Shown here piece by piece: positions 24,652 through 59,164 of a stretch of DNA of 64,000 nt. The notes beneath the pieces were generated by a model that made no database searches, was not told the origin of the DNA, and saw only the letters and a program-made list of their open reading frames with translations. Location: assembly GCA_016932015.1 (NCBI GenBank), contig JAFGDQ010000043.1, positions 39,454-103,453 on the forward strand, given 5' to 3'. How positions within the stretch are numbered: position 1 is the stretch's first letter; every line of letters begins with the position of its first letter. The DNA is from Spirochaetota bacterium. Its GTDB lineage: Bacteria; Spirochaetota; UBA4802; JAFGDQ01. Made by a program: the position numbers and the translations under genes.

Positions 24652-25743
24652 TTACACCCGTACAGATGTCATTTTAACAATCTGTGATATAATACCTTCT
24701 ATATTTCTTATCATATCAGCAGCACCCAGCTTAATAGCCTCAGCCGGCATGCCGAAAATGATTGATGATGCTTCATCCTGTGCGATTGTGGAAATACCGG
24801 ATTCCTTTATTTCTAAAAGGCCTTTTGCTCCGTCATTTCCCATTCCTGTAAGTATTATTCCAAGGGAATTTCTGGAAGCCACCTGAGCAAATGAGCGGAA
24901 AAGAACATCTACAGATGGTTTATGCCTGTTTACAGGCGGGCCGTCATTGATTTCTATTTTATATCCCGAATGATCACTTTTCAGAAGCATGTGTTTGCCG
25001 CCCGGAGCAATAAAGACAGTACCCTTGTAAACACGGTCACCGTCTTCAGCTTCCTTTACATACAATTTTGAAATTCCGTTTATCCGGTCCGCAAAAGACC
25101 TGGTAAATTTTTCAGGCATATGCTGTGCGATTACAATTCCCGGGACATCTTCAGAAAGATTACATAAAATTTCGGCAATAACCTCCGTACCTCCTGTTGA
25201 TGCTCCTATAGCTATAACCGAATCGGATCTTATTCTGCTTGTTTCCGTGATTTTTTTTGGTATTATAACATCTGCATCATATTTTTTACTGACATTTATT
25301 TCATGAGCAGGCCGGCCTGCACTTCTCAGGTTTCTCTTGATTTTTGATTTACTCGCCGCTATTACCTTGTTTACAAGCTCTTCTGAAAACGCGTTATACT
25401 CATCTTCATTCTGAAGATTCGGCTTCAGAACAAAATCAACAGCTCCCAGAGAAAGAGCTTTCACTGTATTGTCTGCTCCGCGATCAGTAAATGAACTTAC
25501 CATAATAACCGGCATAGGGCTCGAAATCATTAGTTTTGAAAGAAATGTCAGGCCGTCCATTCTGGGCATTTCAATATCAAGAGTAAGAACATCCGGTTTT
25601 AATTTCTGAATTTTATTTACAGCAATATACGGGTCAAGAGCAGAACCCACCACATCAATATATCTGGAACGGGACAGTGCCTCAGTTAATATCTTTCGTA
25701 TAACGGCTGAATCATCGACAATTAATACTTTTATTCTTTCCAT
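24652..25743 (-). CDS. cheB: Chemotaxis methylesterase/glutamine deamidase CheB
   Basis: 363 residues: receiver domain (1-120) with phosphoacceptor Asp56 in LTLDIEMP, then a linker and the C-terminal methylesterase with catalytic Ser182 (IGASTGGTE), His208 (AQHMPEKF) and Asp304 (GMGNDGAKG). It removes methyl groups from receptor glutamates and is activated by CheA phosphorylation. It is the last gene of the che operon, one base after cheD1. Both its partner CheR and two CheD proteins are encoded alongside, but no receptor gene is. Confidence 0.96.
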   Translation of the reverse strand: MERIKVLIVDDSAVIRKILTEALSRSRYIDVVGSALDPYIAVNKIQKLKPDVLTLDIEMPRMDGLTFLSKLMISSPMPVIMVSSFTDRGADNTVKALSLGAVDFVLKPNLQNEDEYNAFSEELVNKVIAASKSKIKRNLRSAGRPAHEINVSKKYDADVIIPKKITETSRIRSDSVIAIGASTGGTEVIAEILCNLSEDVPGIVIAQHMPEKFTRSFADRINGISKLYVKEAEDGDRVYKGTVFIAPGGKHMLLKSDHSGYKIEINDGPPVNRHKPSVDVLFRSFAQVASRNSLGIILTGMGNDGAKGLLEIKESGISTIAQDEASSIIFGMPAEAIKLGAADMIRNIEGIISQIVKMTSVRV

Positions 25744-25744
25744 T

Positions 25745-26299
25745 TTATGCGAACCTGTTTATTGAGAAATCCAACTCTCTTTGTACAACCAGATTGATAA
25801 CTTCTGCTTTGGTAGTTTTCTTTAAAAAAACCTTTCCTGACCTGACATCCATGAATATTTTCCGTGTAAATTTATCACCAACATCTATATCTACTATTGG
25901 TATATCCTCAATTTCCATATAAAGTTTAGCTACCCTGATATTATCAAAAGGAATACCCTTCTTATCGGTTATCTTATCAAGAACATGTCCTCCTCCAAAA
26001 ATTTTAGCAATCAGATTCTCTTTTTTTGCACCATGTTTATATAATTGTAATAGAAGATTATAAATCGCTGATGTTCCATACTTTGCGTAATCATCATTTA
26101 TTATATCCGATTTTGTAATCCGACCGGGCAGCATAAAATGATTCATCCCTGAAACAGAATTCACCGGATCATGGAGACAAACTGCAACACATGACCCAAG
26201 CAATGTACTTATGATTTTATCTTCACCTGAAACATGAAATTCACCCGGATGTATTACAGTAATTTCTTTATTAAACTTTTTACTTGGAGTTGAATACAT
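25745..26299 (-). CDS. cheD: Chemoreceptor glutamine deamidase CheD
   Basis: 184 residues with an intact active site: Cys37 in LLGSCVAVCLHD and His54 in GMNHFMLPG, 17 residues apart as in the characterised CheD fold. It deamidates receptor glutamines and in some systems docks on CheC. It overlaps cheR by one base at its start, indicating coupling. Compare the upstream paralog cheD2, where the cysteine is replaced. Confidence 0.94.
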   Translation of the reverse strand: MYSTPSKKFNKEITVIHPGEFHVSGEDKIISTLLGSCVAVCLHDPVNSVSGMNHFMLPGRITKSDIINDDYAKYGTSAIYNLLLQLYKHGAKKENLIAKIFGGGHVLDKITDKKGIPFDNIRVAKLYMEIEDIPIVDIDVGDKFTRKIFMDVRSGKVFLKKTTKAEVINLVVQRELDFSINRFA

Positions 26300-27132
26300 T
26301 ATGTTTTTTTCTTATAAATAGTATTTCCGATTAAATAATATTTATCACTGAAATGTGATAAATTCTCTGAATGCCCTGCAAAAAAATATCCGTCATCATT
26401 TAAATAATCATAAAATCTGTTAATTACTTTATTTCTTGTATTTCCATCGAAATAAATAATTACGTTCCGGCAGAAAATTAAATCGAATTTTTTATTCATC
26501 GGATACTCTTCATCCAGTAAATTCAATCTTCTGAAATATACCATTTCTTTTATGGAATCAGAAATTATCCATGAATTTATCTTCTCATCATTATATCTTT
26601 TAAAATATTTATGCATGATATCAGTACTAACAGCCTCCAGTACCTCGTTTCTGTAAATACCTGCCTTACCTGACATTAGCACATTTGTGTCAATATCAGT
26701 TGCCAGTATTTTAATATCAGGCATTTTTTTATCTTTATAATATTCAGAAAAAATAACTGCAATTGAATACGGCTCTTCTCCAGTTGAGCATCCCGCACTC
26801 CATATTCTGATCTTTTTTATTCCGTTTTTTTCAAAATCAGGCAGAATTTTTTCTTTTATAAATTCAAAATGTTTAATTTCTCTGAAAAAATCTGTTTTAT
26901 TGGTGGTTATTGAATTTATAAGGTTTTCAATTTCATTATTATAATTCTGAATCAAATAGTCATAATAGGTTTTATAACTGTCAAGATTCAATATTCTCAG
27001 CCTTTTAATCAGCCTGGACTGGATCAGAGCCTTTTTCTTATCTGTCAGGCTGATACCGCTTTCTTTAAAAATAACATTCCTTAATAAATCAAATTCCGTA
27101 TCAGAAATTTCCTTAAAAAATGAAGTCATCAT
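26299..27132 (-). CDS. cheR: Chemotaxis protein methyltransferase CheR
   Basis: 277 residues: N-terminal helical domain (FDLLRNVIFKESGISLTDKKKALIQSRL) and SAM-binding C-terminal domain with RIWSAGCSTGEEPYSIAV (motif I), ILATDIDTNVL and FDLIFCRNVIIYFD. It methylates receptor glutamates using SAM. No C-terminal TPR or pentapeptide-binding extension is present. It lies between the two cheD genes. Confidence 0.96.
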   Translation of the reverse strand: MMTSFFKEISDTEFDLLRNVIFKESGISLTDKKKALIQSRLIKRLRILNLDSYKTYYDYLIQNYNNEIENLINSITTNKTDFFREIKHFEFIKEKILPDFEKNGIKKIRIWSAGCSTGEEPYSIAVIFSEYYKDKKMPDIKILATDIDTNVLMSGKAGIYRNEVLEAVSTDIMHKYFKRYNDEKINSWIISDSIKEMVYFRRLNLLDEEYPMNKKFDLIFCRNVIIYFDGNTRNKVINRFYDYLNDDGYFFAGHSENLSHFSDKYYLIGNTIYKKKT

Positions 27133-27156: not shown

Positions 27157-27747
27157 TTAGTCAAAAAAGATTACCTGCCCGCCGATTCCTGTTTTATTAA
27201 AAACACTGTTAAAATACTCTTTTTCCATTACCAGAAACTCCGAAATATCTTCATTGCTTTTTTGAAACCTTCTCAGGGCTTTTCCTGTTTCTGTAAAAAA
27301 ATAAACTTTTCTTCTTTTTTCACCGCCAAGGTCTTCTCTTAAAATCTGAATATCCTCTAAAGCAAAATACTCGTGCAAAAATCTAATGTTGCTTTTCTGT
27401 ACACCTCCCATATTTGGAATGCTTTCTTTTATATACGCTGCCCCGAAAAGTTTTGCTATCAGCCGGCGTCTGTCCCCGCCCTTTTTAATAATCTCTCCGA
27501 TCAGAAGCTCCATATTCTGTATGCCGAATTTTGCTATATTATCTGATATTATTGTTTCATTGCTCATAGTACCTGGAACAATAAAATGCGCCATACCGCC
27601 TGTTTTATTGTCCTGATCATACAGGCATACAAGCAAAGTTGCCCCGGCAATACTGCCAATGATACATTTTTCAGATGACGCGAAAAACTCTCCCGGAAAT
27701 AAAATATACAGAGGCTGCCCGTAGCTGTTTTTTTCACTCTTTATCAT
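27157..27747 (-). CDS. CheD-like protein lacking the catalytic cysteine
   Basis: 196-residue CheD homologue. It aligns without gaps to CheD1 over the active site (residues 17-60). FPGEFFAS matches HPGEFHVS and GMAHFIVPG matches GMNHFMLPG, so His54 is kept. GSC at 35-37 has become GAT, so the nucleophilic Cys37 is a threonine, and Ser31 of CheD1 is a glycine. It is therefore unlikely to deamidate and may instead bind receptors, CheA or a phosphatase as a scaffold. A 37-residue extension at the C-terminus (EYFNSVFNKTGIGGQVIFFD) is not shared. It sits between cheA1 and cheR. Confidence 0.85.
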   Translation of the reverse strand: MIKSEKNSYGQPLYILFPGEFFASSEKCIIGSIAGATLLVCLYDQDNKTGGMAHFIVPGTMSNETIISDNIAKFGIQNMELLIGEIIKKGGDRRRLIAKLFGAAYIKESIPNMGGVQKSNIRFLHEYFALEDIQILREDLGGEKRRKVYFFTETGKALRRFQKSNEDISEFLVMEKEYFNSVFNKTGIGGQVIFFD

Positions 27748-27875: not shown

Positions 27876-29993
27876 TCAAGCTGCAAGTTCACTGACCAAA
27901 CCATGAATATCAATAATCAATGAAACCGTACCGTCTCCAAGCAAAGACGCACCGGAAATTGCCCTGTTCTTTGTTAAATCGGAATCAAGACTTTTTAAAA
28001 CAATTTGCTGCTGACCTATAAGTTCATCTACCACGATTCCCAGGCTGGTACCATTTGATTCAACTACAACTACAAGACAATCCCATGGATTTTTAAAGTC
28101 GGATTTAATATTAAAAAGATTATTAAGTCTGAGAAGAGAGATATATTCGCCCCGGACAAATATAGTTTCACCTTTACCTTCAATCGTTTTTACCGTATTT
28201 TTTTTCGGCTGAATGGATTCAATAATTGAGAGAAGAGGAATAACATATTTATTCGTTCCAACCCTTACGAGCATGCCGTCAATTATTGCAAGTGTTAATG
28301 GCAGTTTTATGATAAGCCTTGTCCCCTCACCCATATTTGTAAAAACTTTTATAGTACCGCGCAATGCTTCAATATTGGTTTTTACAACATCCATTCCAAC
28401 TCCGCGTCCCGATAATTCCCCTATCTTTTCGGCAGTGGAAAAACCCGGCATAAACATTAAAGAAAGCAGTTTATCATCTGAAATCTCTTCATTTGGTTTA
28501 ATAAACCCCATATTAAAAGCTTTTCTTCTGATTTTTTCTTTATTGATTCCTCTTCCGTCATCAACTACTTCAATATAAACACTGCCCTCCTGATGATATG
28601 CTTTAAGACAGATAACTCCTTGAGACTGTTTGCCTAACTTAGCTCTTTCTTCAGGATTTTCAATTCCATGATCAATAGAATTTCTGATCATATGCTTGAG
28701 AGGGTCGCCTATTTTTTCAATAACCGTTTTATCAAGCTCAGTTTCCGCTCCTTCAATATCAAGCCTGATATCCTTTCCATACTCTCTTGAAGTATCTCTC
28801 ACAAACCTCTTAAACTGTTCGAATGACGGCCCTATCGGTACCATCCTTATCCCCATAATCTGTTCCTGAAATACACGCGTAGTTCTGTCCAGGCCGTAAA
28901 GCGCGTTTTTAACTTTTCGGCCTGCCTCCCCGCCAATATCTTCAGCAACCCGTGAAATAGACGACTGGCCTATTACTATCTCACCGAGTAAATTCATAAG
29001 AACATCAAGTTTTTCTGTGGCTACTCTTAGGGTTGAACTTTCAAATTTTTTCTTAATTTTATTCTGCTGTTCAAGCGCATAATGCGCGTCCGTAAGTGAA
29101 GCATAACCTTTCTTAACAATTATCTCCAGAATCTTTTCATTCTTTTTATCCTGATCTTCCAAAGCATCATGCAGTTCATCTTCGGATATTATATGATTTT
29201 TTAATAAAATTTCACCGATCCTCTGGTCTTCCAATGAAGGGTGTAATTTATGTTCCGGAGTTACATCCTGCAGTATAATTTCATTATCATCTTTGACAAA
29301 AAGAAAGATATCTTTAATCTTCTGTTTACTCTCACTGGTCTTTATTGTAATTTCCCAGGTTAAATAACATTTCTCCGGATCCAGTTCGTCAAAATCAGGT
29401 AATTTATCTATATCTACCCTGAATTGAACAAGTGTATTCTGAATTGATGTAAAATCCTCTATAATTGACAGCGGATCTATTCCATTCTCAAATATTTCAG
29501 GTTTAAATTTAGCGTTCAATCTGATAAATTTATAAAGCTTTTCGTCGTCACTTTCTGTTTCCTCATCTCTTCTCAGTAATCTGACATTACCCGCGGGTTC
29601 TTCCTGATCATTAATTTCATTTTCCGATTCTCTATATGTGTCTATACTGTATAAAAGCCTTTCCTTTTCCTCACTCAAGTCAACTCCGGAGTCATTTCCG
29701 AATATTGACAGCTTAATCCAGTCAATACTTTTTAAAAGAATATCAATAAGCTTATCAGATATTCCCAGCTTACCGGACCTTACATTCTCCATCAGATTCT
29801 CAAGCTTATGAGTAAACTGTGATATCTCATTCATTCCGGCCATACCGGAACTTCCTTTGATAGTATGAACAGACCGAAAGATCCTGTTGATTACTTCAGG
29901 ATCGCTCTCCTCTTCCAGTTTAATAATATCAGGTTCAAGACACTCAAGTATTTCACGGGCTTCATTCCTGAATATATCCTTTAATCCCTCCAT
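27876..29993 (-). CDS. cheA: Chemotaxis histidine kinase CheA (copy 1)
   Basis: 705 residues. HPt domain with His43 (RSVHTIKGSSGM), an FRxxF-type regulatory domain (about 152-245, with DPEKCYLTWEI), an MshEN-like segment (256-312, RIGEILLKNHIISEDELHDAL...ALEQQ), a dimerisation helix pair (317-385) and an ATPase domain (N-box HMIRNSIDHGIE, VDDGRGI, GRGVGMDVV). A C-terminal CheW-like domain completes it. The MshEN-like piece is unusual in CheA and could bind c-di-GMP as it does in some GspE/MshE ATPases. It is followed by cheD2 after 128 bases. Confidence 0.94.
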   Translation of the reverse strand: MEGLKDIFRNEAREILECLEPDIIKLEEESDPEVINRIFRSVHTIKGSSGMAGMNEISQFTHKLENLMENVRSGKLGISDKLIDILLKSIDWIKLSIFGNDSGVDLSEEKERLLYSIDTYRESENEINDQEEPAGNVRLLRRDEETESDDEKLYKFIRLNAKFKPEIFENGIDPLSIIEDFTSIQNTLVQFRVDIDKLPDFDELDPEKCYLTWEITIKTSESKQKIKDIFLFVKDDNEIILQDVTPEHKLHPSLEDQRIGEILLKNHIISEDELHDALEDQDKKNEKILEIIVKKGYASLTDAHYALEQQNKIKKKFESSTLRVATEKLDVLMNLLGEIVIGQSSISRVAEDIGGEAGRKVKNALYGLDRTTRVFQEQIMGIRMVPIGPSFEQFKRFVRDTSREYGKDIRLDIEGAETELDKTVIEKIGDPLKHMIRNSIDHGIENPEERAKLGKQSQGVICLKAYHQEGSVYIEVVDDGRGINKEKIRRKAFNMGFIKPNEEISDDKLLSLMFMPGFSTAEKIGELSGRGVGMDVVKTNIEALRGTIKVFTNMGEGTRLIIKLPLTLAIIDGMLVRVGTNKYVIPLLSIIESIQPKKNTVKTIEGKGETIFVRGEYISLLRLNNLFNIKSDFKNPWDCLVVVVESNGTSLGIVVDELIGQQQIVLKSLDSDLTKNRAISGASLLGDGTVSLIIDIHGLVSELAA

Positions 29994-30092
29994 AAAAAAT
30001 AACTCCTGTTTTAAAAATTCCGGGCAGTATCAAACAGCCAAAATATTTAACAGAAAACAGAGGACATTTATGTTCATACAGTTAATTTAATT

Positions 30093-30653
30093 TTACTGAT
30101 CCTCATCATCACCTGTTTTTTTTTCCTTTTCATCTGAATCCGAAGACAATTCACTGTTTTCAATAGTTTCAATAGTTTCAATCTCATCTTCAGTTAATAT
30201 CATATCAACATCCAGCAGTATGATGAGATTATTTTCTATTCTTCCGATCCCTTCGATGAAATCCGTTTTGATCTTTGCAGTAAATTGAGGAGTACTTTGT
30301 ATTGATGAGACAGGAATATTTACAACATCAGAAACTGAATCAACAATCATGCCTATAAGACGATCCTTAACTTCCACGATTATTATTACAGTATAATTAT
30401 CATACTCTCGTTTATGCATTTTAAATTTTTTGCGCAAATCAACCACAGGTACGACTGACCCGCGCAGATTGATTACCCCCTCCATGAAAAAAGCCGCATT
30501 CGGCACGTGAGTAATATCCGTCATACCTATAATCTCTTTAACCTTCTCAACGCCTACCCCGTATGTCTCATCACCAATCAGGAAGGTAACGTGCTGATGT
30601 TCTCTTTCCTCATCATCATTTTGTTTTAAAATTGTACTTTTAATGTCTTCCAT
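30093..30653 (-). CDS. cheW: Chemotaxis coupling protein CheW
   Basis: 186-residue SH3-like adaptor joining CheA to receptors. The core (about 20-155) shows VTFLIGDETYGVGVEKVKEII, THVPNAAFFMEGVINLRGSVVPVVDLRKKF and DRLIGMIVDSVSDVV. An acidic tail of about 30 residues (DEIETIETIENSELSSDSDEKEKKTGDDEDQ) is longer than usual and looks disordered. It is the only stand-alone CheW in the operon despite two CheA proteins. Confidence 0.95.
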   Translation of the reverse strand: MEDIKSTILKQNDDEEREHQHVTFLIGDETYGVGVEKVKEIIGMTDITHVPNAAFFMEGVINLRGSVVPVVDLRKKFKMHKREYDNYTVIIIVEVKDRLIGMIVDSVSDVVNIPVSSIQSTPQFTAKIKTDFIEGIGRIENNLIILLDVDMILTEDEIETIETIENSELSSDSDEKEKKTGDDEDQ

Positions 30654-30716
30654 TTCAAACTCTCCATATATAAAATTTTATTCCCGGCTAATGAAGAACA
30701 GGAAACTGCACGGAAA

Positions 30717-31088
30717 TTATCTGATAAATTTTTTCACAGCATCTATCAGCTGATCAGTCCGGAAAGGCTTTACGATCCATCCTGAGGCACCGGCTTCTTT
30801 ACCTGCGTTTATAGCAGCTTCGCCGGCTTCTGTAGTAAGCATTAAGACAGGAGTAAACCTGTCATCTTTTCTAAACTCTTTGACAAAAGTAATTCCATCC
30901 ATCACCGGCATATTCACATCAGTAATACATAAAGAAAGGTTGTCTCCGGATTCTTTTATTCCTTTAATCACATTAAGAGCTTCTTTTCCATTCTGAGCAT
31001 GTTTTATGGCTACACCAAGATTTTTAATAACAAGTTCAATACTTTTACGAATAGTAACTGAATCATCAATAATCATCACATAATCCAT
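30717..31088 (-). CDS. cheY: Chemotaxis response regulator CheY
   Basis: 123-residue single-domain receiver. It has the acidic pair IIDDS, phosphoacceptor Asp57 in LCITDVNMPVMDG, TTEAG for the conserved threonine and the lysine in IVKPF. There is no output domain, so it acts by protein-protein contact at a flagellar motor or another target; no motility genes are in the window to decide. It lies between the STAS gene and cheW. Confidence 0.95.
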   Translation of the reverse strand: MDYVMIIDDSVTIRKSIELVIKNLGVAIKHAQNGKEALNVIKGIKESGDNLSLCITDVNMPVMDGITFVKEFRKDDRFTPVLMLTTEAGEAAINAGKEAGASGWIVKPFRTDQLIDAVKKFIR

Positions 31089-31114
31089 TGTATTCCCTCT
31101 TGTTTCAAATATAA

Positions 31115-31366
31115 TTAATTTGAAAAACCGGCCAGATATAATTGCCTTTTAATGTCCTTTGACACGGATTTGAGTTTGATGCTTTTATTATTTTTCATGC
31201 ATTCCCTGTTAGCTGCAATAAGCACCTGTACTACAGACAAATCGAGTCTTTTCACATTTTGCAGATCCAGAATTATTTCAGCTTCTTTTTTCAGCAGCTC
31301 TTTCAGCTCAAGATAGAATTTCTTAACGGTTTTTACTCCGATATTCTCATTCACTTCTATAGTCAT
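31115..31366 (-). CDS. STAS domain protein in che operon
   Basis: 83-residue single STAS domain, similar in size to the minimal lipid-asymmetry/anti-anti-sigma type. The conserved strand-helix region is ILDLQNVKRLDLSVVQVLIAANRE, with a serine (DLS) at the usual phosphorylation position. A STAS protein between cheA2 and cheY is found in several non-enteric chemosensory operons, where it may serve as an alternative phospho-target or scaffold. No sigma regulator is adjacent. Confidence 0.85.
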   Translation of the reverse strand: MTIEVNENIGVKTVKKFYLELKELLKKEAEIILDLQNVKRLDLSVVQVLIAANRECMKNNKSIKLKSVSKDIKRQLYLAGFSN

Positions 31367-31393
31367 TTTCTCCCCCTGAATTTAAAAAATCTA

Positions 31394-33541
31394 TCAATGT
31401 ATAACGTCGCCGGCGAGACCGTGTATATCAAGAATCAATGCAATCTTTCCATCCCCTAGTATTGATGCCCCTGAAATCGCACGGTTCTTTGTAAGTTCCG
31501 AATCCATGCTCTTTATTACAATCTGCTGCTGGCCGATTAACTCATCAACCATTAAAGCCAGCATTCCATTATTGGCTTCAACAATTACCACCAGAGAATT
31601 GCACGGATCAGTATATTCAGATTTTATTCTGAACAATTCATATAGCCTTATGAGTGACACATACTGCCCTCTTATGTAGACAACTTCACCCTGCCCTTTT
31701 ATTGTTTTCACTTCCTTTTTCGCAGGTCTAATTGATTCCACAATCGAGAGAAGAGGAATAACATATTTATGTTCTCCCACACGGATAAGCATTCCGTCAA
31801 TAATAGCGAGTGTCAGAGGCAGTTTTATGGTAAAAACAGTTCCCCTGCCTTTTTCAGATTCAATTTTAATTGTCCCCCGCAATTCATCAATATTGGTTTT
31901 AACAACGTCCATACCGACACCGCGACCGGAAAGGTCTCCTACCTTTTCCGCAGTGGAGAAACCCGGCATAAATAAAAAGCTGAATAAATTTTCATCAGAT
32001 ATCTCATCAGAATGTTTAATAAAACCAAGCTGTTCAGCCTTTTTCCTGACTCTCAGCTTATCAATGCCTCTGCCGTCATCCCTGACTTCGACATAAACGC
32101 TTCCTTCCTGATGATAGGCTTTTAAAAATATTTCAGCGTTCAGGTTTTTACCGGATTTTTTTCTTTCTTCCGTGCTTTCAATTCCGTGATCAATTGAGTT
32201 TCGAATCATATGTTTTAAAGGATCATTCAGTTTTTCAATTACAGTTTTATCAAGTTCAGTTTCCGCTCCCTCAATAACAAGTTTGATATCCTTATTAAAA
32301 ATTTTTGCAGTATCTCTGACAAATCTCCTGAACTGTTCAAACGTCGGGCCAATCGGGATCATCCTTATTCCCATCAGATTTTCCTGAAACTCACGCGTTG
32401 TCCTGTCAAGACCGTTTACAGCACTCACTACTCTTTCAGCTTCATCTCCCTCAATGCCTTCCGCTGCTCTCATAATTGCAGACTGCCCTATTATTATTTC
32501 ACCTAATAAATTAAGCAGTTTATCAAGCTTTCCGGTTGATACTCTTATACTGCTGCTTTCAATCTTTTTCTTAATCTTATCCTGTTCTTCAAGAGCGCTT
32601 TTCACTTCTTCATCCGAAGCATAGCCCTTCTCGATCATCAGCTCCGCAATTTTTTTCCCGGATTGTTTTTGAGTTTCAAGAACCTTATCAAGTTCCTGTT
32701 TATTTATAATATTTTTACTTAACATGATCTCACCCAGTTTCTGTACTTCAAGATTCCGGGGAGCATTAAATGCTTCAGTTATATCATTAATTTTAACAGT
32801 GCTGTGATCCCTTACGAAGATAAATGTATCTTCAATTTTGCTGATATCATAACCGGACCTCATTATAATATCCCAGTTTAAAAAACATTTTTCCGGATCA
32901 AGATTTTCAAAATCAGGCAATTTTCTTTTGTCTACAACACGCCGGCTTATCCGTCCAAGAGACACAAGATCTTCAATAATCATTAACGGATCAATGCCGT
33001 TTCTGAAAACTGATTCTTTAAACACAACTTTAATTCTATAAAATCTATATGCGGTTTCGTCCGAATTATCAGTTGCACTGCTCTTAACTGAAGTGTTATC
33101 TGCAATTACTTCAGAATTAATAGCAGATAGAGAATTATATGCAGGAACTTGAAGATGACCGGATAAATTACCGTTTTGCATATATGCATCAATCTGTGAA
33201 AGCAGCTGGATCTTCAATGTTTCTGTAACATCACTTTTATCAGTCCCTGCGACATTCATTCTGATCCAGTCCATGCTGTTTAAAAGAATGTCAATCAAAT
33301 CTCCATCGACCTGCAGACTCCCGCCTCTTACAGCATCCATAAGATTTTCAAGTTTGTGGGTAAATTCCGATAATTCCATTAATCCGGCCATACCTGAACT
33401 TCCCTTAAGGGTGTGAACCGATCTGAATATTTTATTTACAGCATCCGGACTTTTTGTCTCTTCAAGATTTACAATTTCCGGCTCCAGGTTCTGTAATATT
33501 TCCTGAGCCTCTCCTGTAAATATTTCTCTCAAACCTTCCAT
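31394..33541 (-). CDS. cheA: Chemotaxis histidine kinase CheA (copy 2)
   Basis: 715-residue paralog of the 27876 gene with the same domain order: HPt with His43 (RSVHTLKGSSG), a low-complexity linker (about 125-165), the FRxxF/DPEKCFLNWDI domain, MshEN-like segment (266-322, KLGEIMLSKNIINKQELDKVL), dimerisation, ATPase (HMIRNSIDHGIES, RDDGRGID) and CheW-like domain. It is the first gene of the operon. Kinase and CheW-like parts are very alike between copies while the linkers differ, which suggests duplication followed by divergence. Both keep all catalytic motifs, so both should be active. Confidence 0.94.
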   Translation of the reverse strand: MEGLREIFTGEAQEILQNLEPEIVNLEETKSPDAVNKIFRSVHTLKGSSGMAGLMELSEFTHKLENLMDAVRGGSLQVDGDLIDILLNSMDWIRMNVAGTDKSDVTETLKIQLLSQIDAYMQNGNLSGHLQVPAYNSLSAINSEVIADNTSVKSSATDNSDETAYRFYRIKVVFKESVFRNGIDPLMIIEDLVSLGRISRRVVDKRKLPDFENLDPEKCFLNWDIIMRSGYDISKIEDTFIFVRDHSTVKINDITEAFNAPRNLEVQKLGEIMLSKNIINKQELDKVLETQKQSGKKIAELMIEKGYASDEEVKSALEEQDKIKKKIESSSIRVSTGKLDKLLNLLGEIIIGQSAIMRAAEGIEGDEAERVVSAVNGLDRTTREFQENLMGIRMIPIGPTFEQFRRFVRDTAKIFNKDIKLVIEGAETELDKTVIEKLNDPLKHMIRNSIDHGIESTEERKKSGKNLNAEIFLKAYHQEGSVYVEVRDDGRGIDKLRVRKKAEQLGFIKHSDEISDENLFSFLFMPGFSTAEKVGDLSGRGVGMDVVKTNIDELRGTIKIESEKGRGTVFTIKLPLTLAIIDGMLIRVGEHKYVIPLLSIVESIRPAKKEVKTIKGQGEVVYIRGQYVSLIRLYELFRIKSEYTDPCNSLVVIVEANNGMLALMVDELIGQQQIVIKSMDSELTKNRAISGASILGDGKIALILDIHGLAGDVIH

Positions 33542-33886: not shown

Positions 33887-35614
33887 ATGAAACTTATCAT
33901 CTTTTATTTTGATTATAGAATTTCAAAAATTTTTAAGGAGCAGATCAATGCAGAAGGTAAAACTGTTAAGGCAATTGCAACATCGAATAATTTTGTTTTC
34001 AGAAATGAAATACTTGCAAAAATAATTGAAGTTGAAGATCAAAACGAAATCAAATCCCATATAGATCCGGAATATAACTATTATCATGTTATTAAGTATT
34101 TACCTTTTAAATCCGGCGAAGGTGTTTCTTATGATGATTTCACGAAAACATTCCGGGCTTCGGAATACGGGTTTGTAAGATTTGATAAACTTAACGCAAA
34201 AATTTCTGTTTTATCACCCCTTCAGATAACAAGAGATAAGACCAAAGCTTACTTTCTTATTCATCCGTCAATTTTAAACAGAATTCCGGATTTTGAAGAT
34301 ATATCTGAACAGCTTGTAAAAAAAAATATCTATACCATTTTACCAAAAAACGAAATTGATGAAAAACTCGGTCAGATAGATGTGAACATCCAGAAGCTTT
34401 ATAAAATACTTGTAGCTGCAGGCAAAGAACCGGCAAACGGGAATCCGGAATATTTTATTCCTTTAATTAATATTGAAAAAAAAGCCGGAAAGATTCTTGA
34501 TAATGGAAGTATCGATTTCAAGGAGATAGATTCAATTATACAAATTAAACAAAGACAGGCAATTTTGAAACGAATACCGGCGAAAGCTCCTGAAGACGGA
34601 TTTAATATATATGGTGATAAAATACCGGCAATAATTGAATCACGTATCGGTTATATTAAAGGAAAAAATATTATACCTTCAGAGGATGATACTGTCTATG
34701 TCTCTGAGATTGACGGATGTCTTAGCAGGATTAGCAATATTGTTTCTGTTCTGCCTGTTGTTGTTATTAAAGGTGATATTAACTATGAAACAGGCAATAT
34801 TGATTTTAAAGGGTCAGTTGACATATTTGGTTCCGTACTTCCCGGATTCAAAGTGACAGCAAGTGACAATATCGTTATAAGGAATAACGTGGATGACGCT
34901 ACTATACAGGCCGGTGGGAATATAATTGTGCATGCCGGAATTGGAGGAAAAGGATCAACAAAAATAACTGCTGAAGGCTCAGTAAAGGCGAAATATATTC
35001 TTAATTCTACAATAGAGGCAAAAGGAGATGTTACTGCGGAAGTTTCTATTATCAACAGCAATATTTACTCAAACGGCAGAATCACTGTTACTGACGAAAA
35101 CGGCAAAATTATGGGCGGAGAAACAATGAGCCTTAATGAAGTTTCGGCATATACAATTGGAGGCCCAAAGGAAAATAAAACAATTATAACAGCAGGGAAA
35201 AATCTGATTATTGAAAATGAATTGAATTCTTTAAAAATGCAGCTGAATATTTACAAAGAAGAAGCTGAAGAGCTGGCAGAATATGCCAAATCAATGTACG
35301 GCGAAGAATTATTTATGAATACAAAAAAATTTCTTTCAATACTTCCCGAAGTTAAGAAAAAAAACTGTCTGCTGCTTCTTTCCAAGATGGCTGAGTGCAA
35401 TGAAAAGCTAAAAGAAAAAACACAGGAATATAAAGAAACAGTTGAAAGATACACTCCACCCCGTGAGCCGGTTATTACTGTTTTTAAAGATATTTTTCCA
35501 GGGACAATAATTAATATAAAAAAACGGACAAAACATATTGAAAGGAAATATTCAAATGTAAAATTCTTCGAGGACAATGAAGAAAAATTAATCAAATTTA
35601 CTTATGCTGTATAA
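33887..35614 (+). CDS. FapA/DUF342 family protein (copy 1)
   Basis: 575 residues. An N-terminal alpha/beta region (MKLIIFYFDYRISKIFKEQ, about 1-130) is followed by the DUF342 beta-solenoid core (about 160-430) with repeated turns such as INYETGNIDFKGSVDIFGSV and VKAKYILNSTIEAKGDVTAE. A coiled coil (about 445-520) and a basic C-terminal part follow. FapA proteins are soluble, bactofilin-like in their solenoid, and in Vibrio affect polar flagellum placement. There is no Shine-Dalgarno-like sequence before the ATG. It is divergent from the che operon across 345 AT-rich bases and is followed by a same-length paralog. Confidence 0.85.
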   Translation: MKLIIFYFDYRISKIFKEQINAEGKTVKAIATSNNFVFRNEILAKIIEVEDQNEIKSHIDPEYNYYHVIKYLPFKSGEGVSYDDFTKTFRASEYGFVRFDKLNAKISVLSPLQITRDKTKAYFLIHPSILNRIPDFEDISEQLVKKNIYTILPKNEIDEKLGQIDVNIQKLYKILVAAGKEPANGNPEYFIPLINIEKKAGKILDNGSIDFKEIDSIIQIKQRQAILKRIPAKAPEDGFNIYGDKIPAIIESRIGYIKGKNIIPSEDDTVYVSEIDGCLSRISNIVSVLPVVVIKGDINYETGNIDFKGSVDIFGSVLPGFKVTASDNIVIRNNVDDATIQAGGNIIVHAGIGGKGSTKITAEGSVKAKYILNSTIEAKGDVTAEVSIINSNIYSNGRITVTDENGKIMGGETMSLNEVSAYTIGGPKENKTIITAGKNLIIENELNSLKMQLNIYKEEAEELAEYAKSMYGEELFMNTKKFLSILPEVKKKNCLLLLSKMAECNEKLKEKTQEYKETVERYTPPREPVITVFKDIFPGTIINIKKRTKHIERKYSNVKFFEDNEEKLIKFTYAV

Positions 35615-35879: not shown

Positions 35880-37607
35880 ATGAAATATATCATTTTCTAT
35901 TTTGATAATAAGGTCAGTAAAATATTTGAAGAGCAAACCAATGAGCATGGCCAGAAATTTATGTCACTAACGTCTCATTATAATTTTGTTTCAAAATATG
36001 AAATTGTTGCCAGGGTTGTTGATATTGATGATGTTGAAGAAATTGATTCATATATTGATGAAGGATACAATTATCATACTTACCAGAAATACAATCCATT
36101 CAAAGCCGGTGACGGTATATTATTTGATCAGACTGACCTGGTATACCGCTCAAAAGATTATGGCTTTGTTAAATATGATACAAATAAAACCGCAATTATT
36201 CTCCTCAGTCCCCTCAGAATACAAAAAGATAAAATGAAAGCATACTATATCATTCATCCTACAAAATTCGGGAAGATTCCGGCGGTAGAAGAGATTGAAG
36301 AAAATTTAACTAAACTAAAAATATACACCATGGTTGACAAGAATACACTGACAGAGGATTTAAAAAAAATAGATACTGCTAAAAACCAGCTTCACAGAGT
36401 TGTTGTTGCCCAGGGAAAAGAGCCGAAGAACGGATATGCTGAACATTTTTTTCCGCTTATCGATTTTCAGAAAAAAGCAGGAAAGCTTCTTGAGAACGGC
36501 AGCATAGACTTTAAAGAAGTAGGCAGCATTGTTGAAGTAAAGCAGCGCCAGGCAATACTGAAAAGGGTACCTGGAGAAACACCTGAAGACGGGTATAATA
36601 TTTACGGTGATAAAGTAACGGGAGAAATCACAGACCCGGGAGGATATTCAGTCGGAGATAACATTATCCCTACTATTGATGAAAATATTTACGCAGCAAG
36701 TATTGACGGCTGCATTGAAATTATAAAAAAAACAATATCCGTATCACCGGTTTCCTTCATAAAAGGAGATGTCAATTACGATTCAGGAAATATAGACTTC
36801 AGCGGAAGCGTACATGTATCAGGCTCCGTTCTGCCGGGTTTTATAGTTAAAGCTAAAGGTGATGTGATAATAGCAAAGAACGTTGATGATGCTGTTATAG
36901 AGGCTGGAGCCAATGTGGAAGTTAAGCTGGGAATCGGAGGGAAAGGACTTTCCAGGATAACTGCCGGGGGTAATGTTAAGGCAAAATTTGTTCTAAATTC
37001 CAATATTGAAGCAATGGGATCAGTTGAAGTCGAAGACTCCATTATCAACAGCGAAATTTTTTCTAATGATAAAATAACGGTGACAGACAAACATGGAAAA
37101 ATAATCGGCGGAGAATTAACAGCGCTTTATGAAATTCAGGCAAAGATATCAGGAGTACCTAAAGAGAATAAAACAATACTTGCAGTTGGAAAAAATATCA
37201 TCATTGAAATGGAACTCGCGGAACTTAGAAAACAGATAAATGAATTAAAAGAAAAAATCGAAGAACAAACCCGGAAAATTAAATCCAGTTATGGAGAGGA
37301 GGTTTTTACTAACTTAAAAGAATTCATTACCATTCTGCCTCCGGTTAAGAAGAAGGCATGTATTGAAGCTGTTACTGAATTATCTACTTTAAACAAAGAT
37401 CTTAAGGAATTATCAATACAATACGAAGCCAAGGAAAATGAACTGAAATTTGACCGGGATCCGGCAATAGAGATTATAGATAAAGTTTACCCCGGTACAC
37501 TTATAAAAATAAAAAAAAGTGTCCGTCTGATTGAAGAGCTGTTAAGAAACGTTAAATTCTACGAAGATCCCGCAGAAAAGGTAATAAGAATCACTTCCGC
37601 TAACTGA
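35880..37607 (+). CDS. FapA/DUF342 family protein (copy 2)
   Basis: Also exactly 575 residues and collinear with copy 1: MKYIIFYFDNKVSKIFEEQ start, YAEHFFPLIDFQKKAGKLLENGSIDFKE, solenoid turns VNYDSGNIDFSGSVHVSGSV and GIGGKGLSRITAGGNVKAK, coiled coil and C-terminal VYPGTLIKIKKSVR. A tandem duplication with substantial divergence. Like copy 1 it has no obvious ribosome site (poly-A before ATG). A rho-independent terminator follows at 37666. A link with polar organisation of the chemosensory array is an inference from position. Confidence 0.85.
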   Translation: MKYIIFYFDNKVSKIFEEQTNEHGQKFMSLTSHYNFVSKYEIVARVVDIDDVEEIDSYIDEGYNYHTYQKYNPFKAGDGILFDQTDLVYRSKDYGFVKYDTNKTAIILLSPLRIQKDKMKAYYIIHPTKFGKIPAVEEIEENLTKLKIYTMVDKNTLTEDLKKIDTAKNQLHRVVVAQGKEPKNGYAEHFFPLIDFQKKAGKLLENGSIDFKEVGSIVEVKQRQAILKRVPGETPEDGYNIYGDKVTGEITDPGGYSVGDNIIPTIDENIYAASIDGCIEIIKKTISVSPVSFIKGDVNYDSGNIDFSGSVHVSGSVLPGFIVKAKGDVIIAKNVDDAVIEAGANVEVKLGIGGKGLSRITAGGNVKAKFVLNSNIEAMGSVEVEDSIINSEIFSNDKITVTDKHGKIIGGELTALYEIQAKISGVPKENKTILAVGKNIIIEMELAELRKQINELKEKIEEQTRKIKSSYGEEVFTNLKEFITILPPVKKKACIEAVTELSTLNKDLKELSIQYEAKENELKFDRDPAIEIIDKVYPGTLIKIKKSVRLIEELLRNVKFYEDPAEKVIRITSAN

Positions 37608-57457: not shown

Positions 57458-59164
57458 ATGTCCAACAGAAAAACAACTCAATCATTCGGTCAAATCCTTA
57501 TTGATAAGAATCTGCTGAAAGCAGAAGAGCTTCAGGAAGCTTTTCTGGCGCAGAAAGATGCTTCAGTAAGTCAGCTTGGCCAGTTTCTTTTAAAGAAAGG
57601 GATAGTAAAAAATGAAGATATTCTTTCGGCACTTGCCGAATATTTTGGAATACCATATCAGAAAAAAATAGATTTTCATGATCCGGATAATACTTTCGCC
57701 GGTATCGCACTGCATTTTTTAAAAAAGAATAAAATCGTCCCTTTTAAAAAGAATAAAGATATTATATATGTTGCAGTTGCAGATCCTTTAAATATACGCC
57801 CTTTTGATGATTTGAAAATGATTTTCCCGGATCATACCTTTGAAGTTGTTCTGACTTCCGAAGAAGAAATTTCAAAAATTATCAGAACGCACTTTGATTC
57901 TCTGAAAGCAGATACAAGCGAAGATGCTATGGAGGATCTGGAATATGAAGATATAGAAATTCTCTCCTCACAGATTGCGGAAACCGAAGATATTCTTGAT
58001 ATGGCCAATGAAGCGCCTATCATCAGACTTGTCAATACAATATTAACAGAAGCTGTCAACGACAGGGCAAGTGATATTCATATTGAACCCTATGAAAAAG
58101 ATCTTATTGTAAGATACAGAATTGACGGAATACTTTACCAGACTCTTACTCCTTCCAAAAAATTTCACGGAGCAATTGTATCCCGTATCAAAATAATGGC
58201 AAATCTGAACATTGCCGAGAACAGGCTTCCTCAGGACGGCCGTATTCAGATTAAAATAGGCGGCAAGGATATTGATATTCGTGTTTCTATTTTTCCAACT
58301 TATTACGGGGAAAGGGTTGTTCTCAGACTTCTTAACAAAACAGACATGAAATTTGATCTTGAGAGTATCGGATTTTCACAGTCAACTCTCAAGCTGTTCG
58401 ATTCTCAAATAAAGAAAACACACGGAATCATTCTGGTTACCGGGCCTACTGGCAGCGGTAAAACCACTACCCTGTACAGCGTTCTTACTAAGATCAATAC
58501 AACAGATGTAAACACGCTTACAGTTGAAGATCCTATTGAATACCAGCTGCCGGGTGTCGGGCAGATGCAGGTTAAACCCAAAATTGATCTTACTTTTGCC
58601 AACGGGCTTCGTTCTATTCTTCGTCAGGACCCTGACATTGTAATGATCGGAGAAATCCGCGACCTTGAAACTGCAGAAATAGCTGTTCAGGCAGCATTGA
58701 CAGGACACCGTGTTTTTTCCACAATTCATACAAATGATGCAGCAAGTTCAATTACACGGCTTATTGACATGGGAATAGAACCATTTCTAATCGCATCCGC
58801 GTTTAATGCTTTTCTGGCACAAAGGCTGGTAAGAACAATCTGCCCTGATTGCAGAACTTCAATCAGACCTACACAAAAAATGCTGAAGGAACTTGGAATT
58901 AAACAGACTGAGATTAAAGGAAATAAACTCGCGTACGGGAAAGGATGTGAAAAATGCCTTAATACAGGTTATTTAGGCAGAATGGGAATTTATGAACTTC
59001 TTCCTATTGACAAGAACATCAGACAAATGATCATGGATCAGGCTGACGCGAACCTTATTAAGGAAACTGCAATTAAAAACGGTATGCTTACCCTTCGCCA
59101 GGATGGAATTCAGAAAGCAATTGCCGGCCTGACTACTATTGAAGAGGTATTGAGAGTAAGTTAA
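57458..59164 (+). CDS. gspE: Type II secretion ATPase GspE
   Basis: 568-residue cytoplasmic motor. N-terminal MshEN/T2SSE_N domain (about 9-67 and onward: SFGQILIDKNLLKAEELQEAF...LSALAEYFGIPY), then the ATPase with Walker A GPTGSGKTTT, Asp box VEDPIEY, Walker B RQDPDIVMIGEIRD and His box. A tetracysteine zinc motif (CPDCRTS...CEKCLNTGY) is present. This supports a full PulE-type ATPase. gspF follows after 1 base. Confidence 0.96.
   Translation: MSNRKTTQSFGQILIDKNLLKAEELQEAFLAQKDASVSQLGQFLLKKGIVKNEDILSALAEYFGIPYQKKIDFHDPDNTFAGIALHFLKKNKIVPFKKNKDIIYVAVADPLNIRPFDDLKMIFPDHTFEVVLTSEEEISKIIRTHFDSLKADTSEDAMEDLEYEDIEILSSQIAETEDILDMANEAPIIRLVNTILTEAVNDRASDIHIEPYEKDLIVRYRIDGILYQTLTPSKKFHGAIVSRIKIMANLNIAENRLPQDGRIQIKIGGKDIDIRVSIFPTYYGERVVLRLLNKTDMKFDLESIGFSQSTLKLFDSQIKKTHGIILVTGPTGSGKTTTLYSVLTKINTTDVNTLTVEDPIEYQLPGVGQMQVKPKIDLTFANGLRSILRQDPDIVMIGEIRDLETAEIAVQAALTGHRVFSTIHTNDAASSITRLIDMGIEPFLIASAFNAFLAQRLVRTICPDCRTSIRPTQKMLKELGIKQTEIKGNKLAYGKGCEKCLNTGYLGRMGIYELLPIDKNIRQMIMDQADANLIKETAIKNGMLTLRQDGIQKAIAGLTTIEEVLRVS

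Follow-up and report, generated by a model that had tools for sequence, protein, structure and literature searches.

MshEN_N domains between the P2-like region and P3 of two Spirochaetota CheA kinases, with altered c-di-GMP contact residues

Can a chemotaxis kinase carry its own receptor domain for the second messenger cyclic di-GMP (c-di-GMP)? The question is raised by two cheA genes, referred to here as cheA-A and cheA-B, found at positions 27,876–33,541 of a 64,000-nucleotide stretch (the window) from the genome of a Spirochaetota bacterium (GenBank assembly GCA_016932015.1, contig JAFGDQ010000043.1). An earlier sequence-only reading had claimed two CheA kinases here, each with a 57-residue MshEN-like segment between the regulatory domain and the dimerisation helices, and had proposed that this segment would couple chemosensory signalling to the level of c-di-GMP. 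Both genes are present with intact catalytic boxes, and both products carry the full 53-residue tandem motif of MshEN between a P2-like domain and P3 (Table 1), inside the ranges that had been given (residues 266–322 of CheA-A and 256–312 of CheA-B); the proposed coupling fares less well, as several of the residues which contact the ligand are altered.

Both proteins are CheA kinases by their phospho-acceptor His (HTLKG or HTIKG), their NSIDH, DDGRG and GRGVGMDVV motifs, and their Pfam domains. CheA-A has the domain order P1(Hpt)–P2-like–MshEN_N–P3–P4–P5, with His43 as phospho-acceptor and intact N, G1 and G2 boxes, and CheA-B shares this architecture. The P2-like region of CheA-B has no Pfam match, and it was modelled by AlphaFold2 (AF2) as an alpha/beta domain for which CheA P2 (1u0s) was one of many ferredoxin-like Foldseek matches. 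In both kinases the insert has the 24+5+24 arrangement, a pair of 24-residue motifs joined by a 5-residue spacer, which Wang et al. (2016; PMC5013675) defined as the MshEN architecture. The NCBIfam model NF053729 (c-di-GMP_motif, MshE-related; curated cut-off 38 bits) matches CheA-A at 46.7 bits and CheA-B at 39.3 bits, in each case over positions 1–53 of 53, and also matches all 22 inserts that we aligned. Single-sequence phmmer searches of the PDB found PilF at 5.8e-13 (CheA-A) and 1.5e-8 (CheA-B), followed by PilB and MshE/GSPII entries, while a profile of the 22 inserts found PilF at 7e-27, MshE at 9.5e-12 and also PilB, with nothing from outside the MshEN family below E = 0.001.

Comparison of predicted structures with MshEN, proposed earlier as a check on the inserts, gave an MshEN-like fold for both. 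The AF2 model of the CheA-A domain has four helices (predicted local distance difference test score, pLDDT, 87.7) and superimposes on MshE with bound c-di-GMP (5htl) with a root-mean-square deviation (rmsd) of 0.7 Å over 54 columns; its best 11 Foldseek matches are all MshEN/GSPII domains, most of them with c-di-GMP bound. In the modelled stretch of CheA-B, helices at 107–113, 119–132, 136–143 and 148–166 (model numbering) match 5htl at 0.8 Å over 56 columns, and the fourth extends to residue 166 with the strand and helices of P3 starting right behind. The four-helix bundle of MshEN_N is thus seen in both models. Taking profiles and models together, the CheA inserts are homologous to, and predicted to fold like, the c-di-GMP receptor domain of MshE and PilF.

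It should be noted that the Pfam MshEN model (PF05157) matches none of the CheA inserts, including those with a perfect motif, and this is the one observation which might favour a chance resemblance between amphipathic helices. However, in the type II secretion ATPase GspE, also encoded in the window, PF05157 covers residues 63–149, i.e. downstream of the first motif, and so its silence on the CheA inserts is not counter-evidence; as a test of membership it is uninformative. Against chance stand the NF053729 scores above cut-off over all 53 positions, the PDB E-values down to 7e-27, the fold match, and a 24+5+24 register kept exactly in dozens of orthologs, and we regard this explanation as refuted, with a residual probability that is close to nil. 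We also rejected Pfam matches to Fumarase C-terminus, CARD, nitrile hydratase and DUF4388, which were below cut-offs and were partial helical matches. PF05157 alone misses the tandem four-helix part which NF053729 detects, and Pfam is therefore blind to the domain in CheA; surveys based on Pfam miss such MshEN_N fusions.

The positions that contact c-di-GMP in MshE are R9, L10, G11, L25, L29 and Q32 in the first motif and R38, L39, G40, L54, L58 and Q61 in the second (MshE numbering, used throughout). CheA-A deviates from the MshE motif by R9K, G18N, R38K, L39I, G40A and L54V, and CheA-B by L10I, G18H, R38K, L39I, G40L and L54A, the codons at G40 being GCG (Ala) and CTG (Leu), respectively. 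If Lys is accepted for Arg and Ile or Val for Leu, 10 of the 12 contacts in CheA-A are acceptable and the set is broken by G40A; in CheA-B it is broken at both G40 and L54. Because of these replacements neither insert has the contact set of a perfect binder, and their membership of the fold is untouched. Absence of the ligand-contacting residues had been named beforehand as grounds for abandoning the proposal, and the loss is a partial one, comprising G40 and the turn glycine G18 in both kinases together with L54 in CheA-B.

The same positions are strongly conserved in relatives. All 54 non-redundant relatives have G11, G40 and Q61, position 32 is Gln in 44 of the 51 in which this column is present, and Gly is found at both G40 and G18 in all 34 orthologs from the order to which the genome belongs. 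Mean entropy for the 12 contact columns is 0.76 compared with 1.77 for the rest within the order, and 0.90 compared with 1.98 across the rest of the phylum; random sets of columns were equally low in only 32 of 20,000 and 3 of 20,000 draws, respectively. Conservation that is so much stronger at the contact columns than elsewhere favours, without proving, nucleotide binding as the function under selection in the family. A sister genome (L055) has a CheA with Ala and Asn at G40 and G18, like CheA-A, and the changes are therefore not an assembly error of one metagenome-assembled genome (MAG), while a genome of the same family (G002) keeps both glycines. Judged from these comparisons, G40 (and G18) has been lost in the lineage of the window.

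What this would mean for binding can be gauged from the ATPases. In a PilF GSPII-A construct with Ala at the position equivalent to G40, c-di-GMP was still bound with a dissociation constant (KD) of 19 µM, and restoring Gly (A41 to G) brought this to 1.8 µM, an effect of about tenfold (PMC12002112). Overall, exchanging the equivalent Gly for Ala in PilF lowers affinity by about 10-30-fold. Lys at position 1 of the motif is tolerated, as PilF GSPII-B binds with a KD of 6 nM (PMC11731258), and the non-binding XpsE has G40L and a changed L54 among its replacements (PMC5013675). From the G40A and G40L replacements, the loss of G18 and the PilF affinities, weak binding is to be expected for CheA-A and none for CheA-B: binding is probably micromolar or weaker in CheA-A and probably lost in CheA-B. 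The proposed coupling is thus plausible for the spirochaete CheA family, in which the contact positions are conserved, and weakened for the window's own two kinases, which are by sequence among the least likely of the MshEN-CheAs to bind c-di-GMP well.

The explanation we favour, with moderate confidence, is that CheA-A and CheA-B are chemotaxis kinases of a lineage with MshEN_N between P2 and P3, in which c-di-GMP input is probably attenuated in the former and probably lost in the latter. In relatives, c-di-GMP may clamp the four-helix bundle of MshEN_N, the last helix of which would continue straight into the dimerisation helices of P3, and a clamped bundle could bias the access of P1 to P4, i.e. 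autophosphorylation, and so the supply of phosphorylated CheY to the flagellar motor. In the two kinases of the window, the main role left to the domain would be that of a structural or interaction module, placed between P2 and P3. Several points weigh against this explanation. CheA-A retains G11, Q32, Q61, L25, L29 and L58 and has Lys at both arginine sites, so that useful c-di-GMP binding by this kinase is possible; ligand-free AF2 models do not separate a binder from a non-binder; our literature search returned no report of binding by, or a kinase test of, a CheA MshEN domain; and the conserved residues might serve packing or a protein partner and not the nucleotide.

The first of these points leads back to the original proposal that both kinases are functional c-di-GMP receptors coupling the second messenger to kinase activity. 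Both inserts pass the curated c-di-GMP motif model, the first motif is nearly intact, and the PilF values allow both for Lys in place of Arg and for residual binding with Ala at G40; the 34 GGDEF matches in the genome also make c-di-GMP synthesis plausible. We nevertheless consider it unlikely, given that G40 and G18 are Gly throughout the orthologs of the order and have become Ala or Leu and Asn or His, respectively, in the window's kinases, and that CheA-B combines L54A with the Leu seen at G40 in XpsE. The last point would suggest that the domain is purely structural or a docking site (a spacer, a determinant of dimer geometry, or a surface for a STAS or CheD partner), with conservation reflecting packing. 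This would fit the retention of the fold despite the lost glycines, the junction of helix 4 and P3 being among the best conserved stretches, and the presence of a STAS gene next to cheA in most of the operons sampled, but we find it improbable because the columns conserved across the phylum are specifically the ligand contacts and not only the hydrophobic core, and include the Gly that binds guanine through its backbone amide and the Gln which binds ribose or phosphate.

Among named genomes, the closest are MAGs of Spirochaetota. Of 59 relatives, 45 have the insert region, and nearly all of them belong to the order. A profile of the MshEN–P3 junction has matches in 107 of 296 Spirochaetota genomes, including GspE-only matches in which the alignment ends near position 60 of 90; in at least 80 of the 296, by a hand count among the matches listed, the alignment runs through both MshEN and P3 in a frame of CheA size, and the tandem motif is in register in CheA at 20 of 20 loci sampled outside the order. 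The MshEN-CheA fusion, as traced by these profiles, therefore occurs widely in the phylum. We tentatively suggest that direct c-di-GMP input into CheA may be both widespread and ancestral in spirochaetes, and that in the window's lineage a duplication of the kinase was accompanied by re-tuning or loss of the sensor in both copies, re-tuning possibly meaning a shifted affinity or a specificity exerted through one guanine pocket. If intact orthologs do bind c-di-GMP, many spirochaetes would have a second-messenger input for the direction of motility built into the kinase itself.

In Pseudomonas aeruginosa, c-di-GMP acts on the chemotaxis pathway through MapZ, a separate PilZ adaptor on CheR, whereas in the MshEN-CheAs the domain lies inside the kinase. 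The inserts share tandem 24-residue motifs, a 5-residue spacer, the four-helix bundle, Gln at the end of both motifs, Gly11 and the hydrophobic clusters with Vibrio cholerae MshE (5HTL) and Thermus thermophilus PilF GSPII-B (8PDK) and GSPII-C; they differ in that the host is CheA and not an assembly ATPase, P3 follows with no MshEN_C, and the two copies in the window have other residues at G40 and G18. T. thermophilus PilF GSPII-A (9G1W) resembles CheA-A in its near-perfect first motif and degenerate second motif with Ala for Gly, but has lost both Gln residues and the second-motif Arg, where CheA-A has both Gln and a Lys. We note that the occurrence of MshEN with CheA and CheX was already stated by Wang et al. 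(PMC5013675), in one clause that is accompanied by a supplementary table, and whose main text gives this combination without organism, position or test for CheA. The fusion itself is therefore not new, and what is added to that main text here is its extent across the phylum, the statistics on conservation and the loss of glycine in this lineage. A survey published in 2023, covering thousands of CheAs (PMC10782961), describes CheA as lacking a sensor domain; the auxiliary domains listed in its text are P2, receiver and CheC/CheX, and MshEN is not named there.

Seven MshEN matches were found in the genome of the window (places elsewhere in it are given here as C41, C66, C67, C71 and C100), namely two stand-alone proteins, GspE and four of the five CheAs. 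The sequence-only reading had also seen the pattern at the N-terminus of GspE, where NF053729 detects an imperfect motif (Table 1). The CheA paralogs at C41:115771-116475 (L010/L052) and C71:57845-58564 (L011/L053) keep G11, G40, Q32 and Q61, although their spacer is longer and they have further changes; by sequence they are more likely to bind c-di-GMP than the two kinases of the window. With natural G40A and G40L variants alongside intact paralogs, one genome offers ready-made comparisons. The fifth CheA (C66:32500-38500, L054; open frame of 1123 residues) has a C-terminal CheX-like domain and no MshEN. The stand-alone proteins at C67:40599-40754 (L133) and C100:96153-96305 (L135), with open frames of 69 and 93 residues, consist mostly of one motif pair; L133 has the best NF053729 score in the genome (61.6 bits) and a similar 63-residue protein is found in L048. 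These two proteins, which like GspE share the 53-residue motif with the CheAs and are not kinases, are candidate free c-di-GMP adaptors.

Table 1. Coordinates in the window of the two CheA kinases, their domains, the other operon genes and the GspE motif (aa, amino acids; ORF, open reading frame).
Feature	Coordinates	Strand	Details and evidence
cheA-A	31394..33541	-	715 aa; ORF and Pfam Hpt, H-kinase_dim, HATPase_c, CheW
P2-like ferredoxin-fold domain, CheA-A	32768..33052	-	N-terminal of MshEN; by alignment with CheA-B
MshEN_N, CheA-A	32582..32740	-	residues 268-320; KLGEIMLSKNIINKQELDKVLETQ-KQSGK-KIAELMIEKGYASDEEVKSALEEQ
P3 dimerisation helices, CheA-A	32369..32557	-	Pfam H-kinase_dim residues 329-391; directly after MshEN helix 4
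STAS-domain protein	31115..31366	-	83 aa; Pfam STAS_2 3e-11; kept in operon of relatives
CheY	30717..31088	-	single receiver domain; Pfam Response_reg 2.9e-25
CheW	30093..30653	-	186 aa; Pfam CheW 1.2e-39
cheA-B	27876..29993	-	705 aa; architecture as cheA-A; between cheW and cheD1; ORF and Pfam
MshEN_N, CheA-B	29064..29222	-	residues 258-310; RIGEILLKNHIISEDELHDALEDQ-DKKNE-KILEIIVKKGYASLTDAHYALEQQ
P3 dimerisation helices, CheA-B	28851..29039	-	Pfam H-kinase_dim residues 319-381
CheD-like 1	27157..27747	-	Pfam CheD 1.5e-19
CheR	26299..27132	-	ORF, sequence reading, tblastn synteny
CheD 2	25745..26299	-	Pfam CheD 3.5e-21
CheB	24652..25743	-	ORF, sequence reading, tblastn synteny
Imperfect MshEN motif, GspE N-terminus	57485..57640 (gene 57458-59164)	+	NF053729 39.4 bits, 2.4e-9; gene Pfam T2SSE 1.3e-143, MshEN 8.6e-14

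The two kinases are part of a minus-strand operon with the order cheA-A, STAS, cheY, cheW, cheA-B, cheD1, cheR, cheD2 and cheB. This had been described as an operon with a STAS protein, one CheW and no receptor, which is so within the window, with CheY, CheR, CheB and two CheDs having gone unmentioned. The lack of a receptor does not stand as a special feature, however, as a search of the genome, also suggested earlier, gave 29 MCPsignal matches, and the syntenic operon of the sister genome (fapA / cheW–mcp–cheA–STAS–cheY–cheR–cheB, with no cheD and no second cheA) includes a receptor gene, mcp, which is also found just upstream of cheA in many other relatives; we therefore attribute the missing receptor to local rearrangement. 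The sister receptor (L055 3645-5819) has a periplasmic-type sensor region and is encoded between cheW and cheA; there is none there in the window, and cheA-B is found between cheW and cheD1 instead. F2 spirochaete chemotaxis systems are marked by a CheW–CheR-like fusion protein (PMC7666581), which is not present in the operon, where CheW has only the CheW domain (in a search that covered the operon).

The operon recurs as cheA–STAS–cheY–cheW–cheD–cheR–cheD–cheB, with a single cheA, at most of 28 named loci. CheA-A, CheA-B and the sister CheA form one clade (support 100/99) with G002 outside it, and although the tree gives no order within the clade, these sequence comparisons identify CheA-B as a recent, lineage-specific duplicate inside the operon.

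The target of CheY was also sought in the genome. FliG was found twice and no T2SSE ATPase other than GspE passed the cut-off, and so CheY most likely acts on the flagellar motor, a pilus being the less likely output. We note that the two cheD genes are conserved in the order and absent from the syntenic operon of the sister genome, and that two tandem paralogs of FapA (flagellar assembly protein A; 33887-35614 and 35880-37607) diverge from the operon; one of these paralogs is retained in the sister genome (L055 933-2660).

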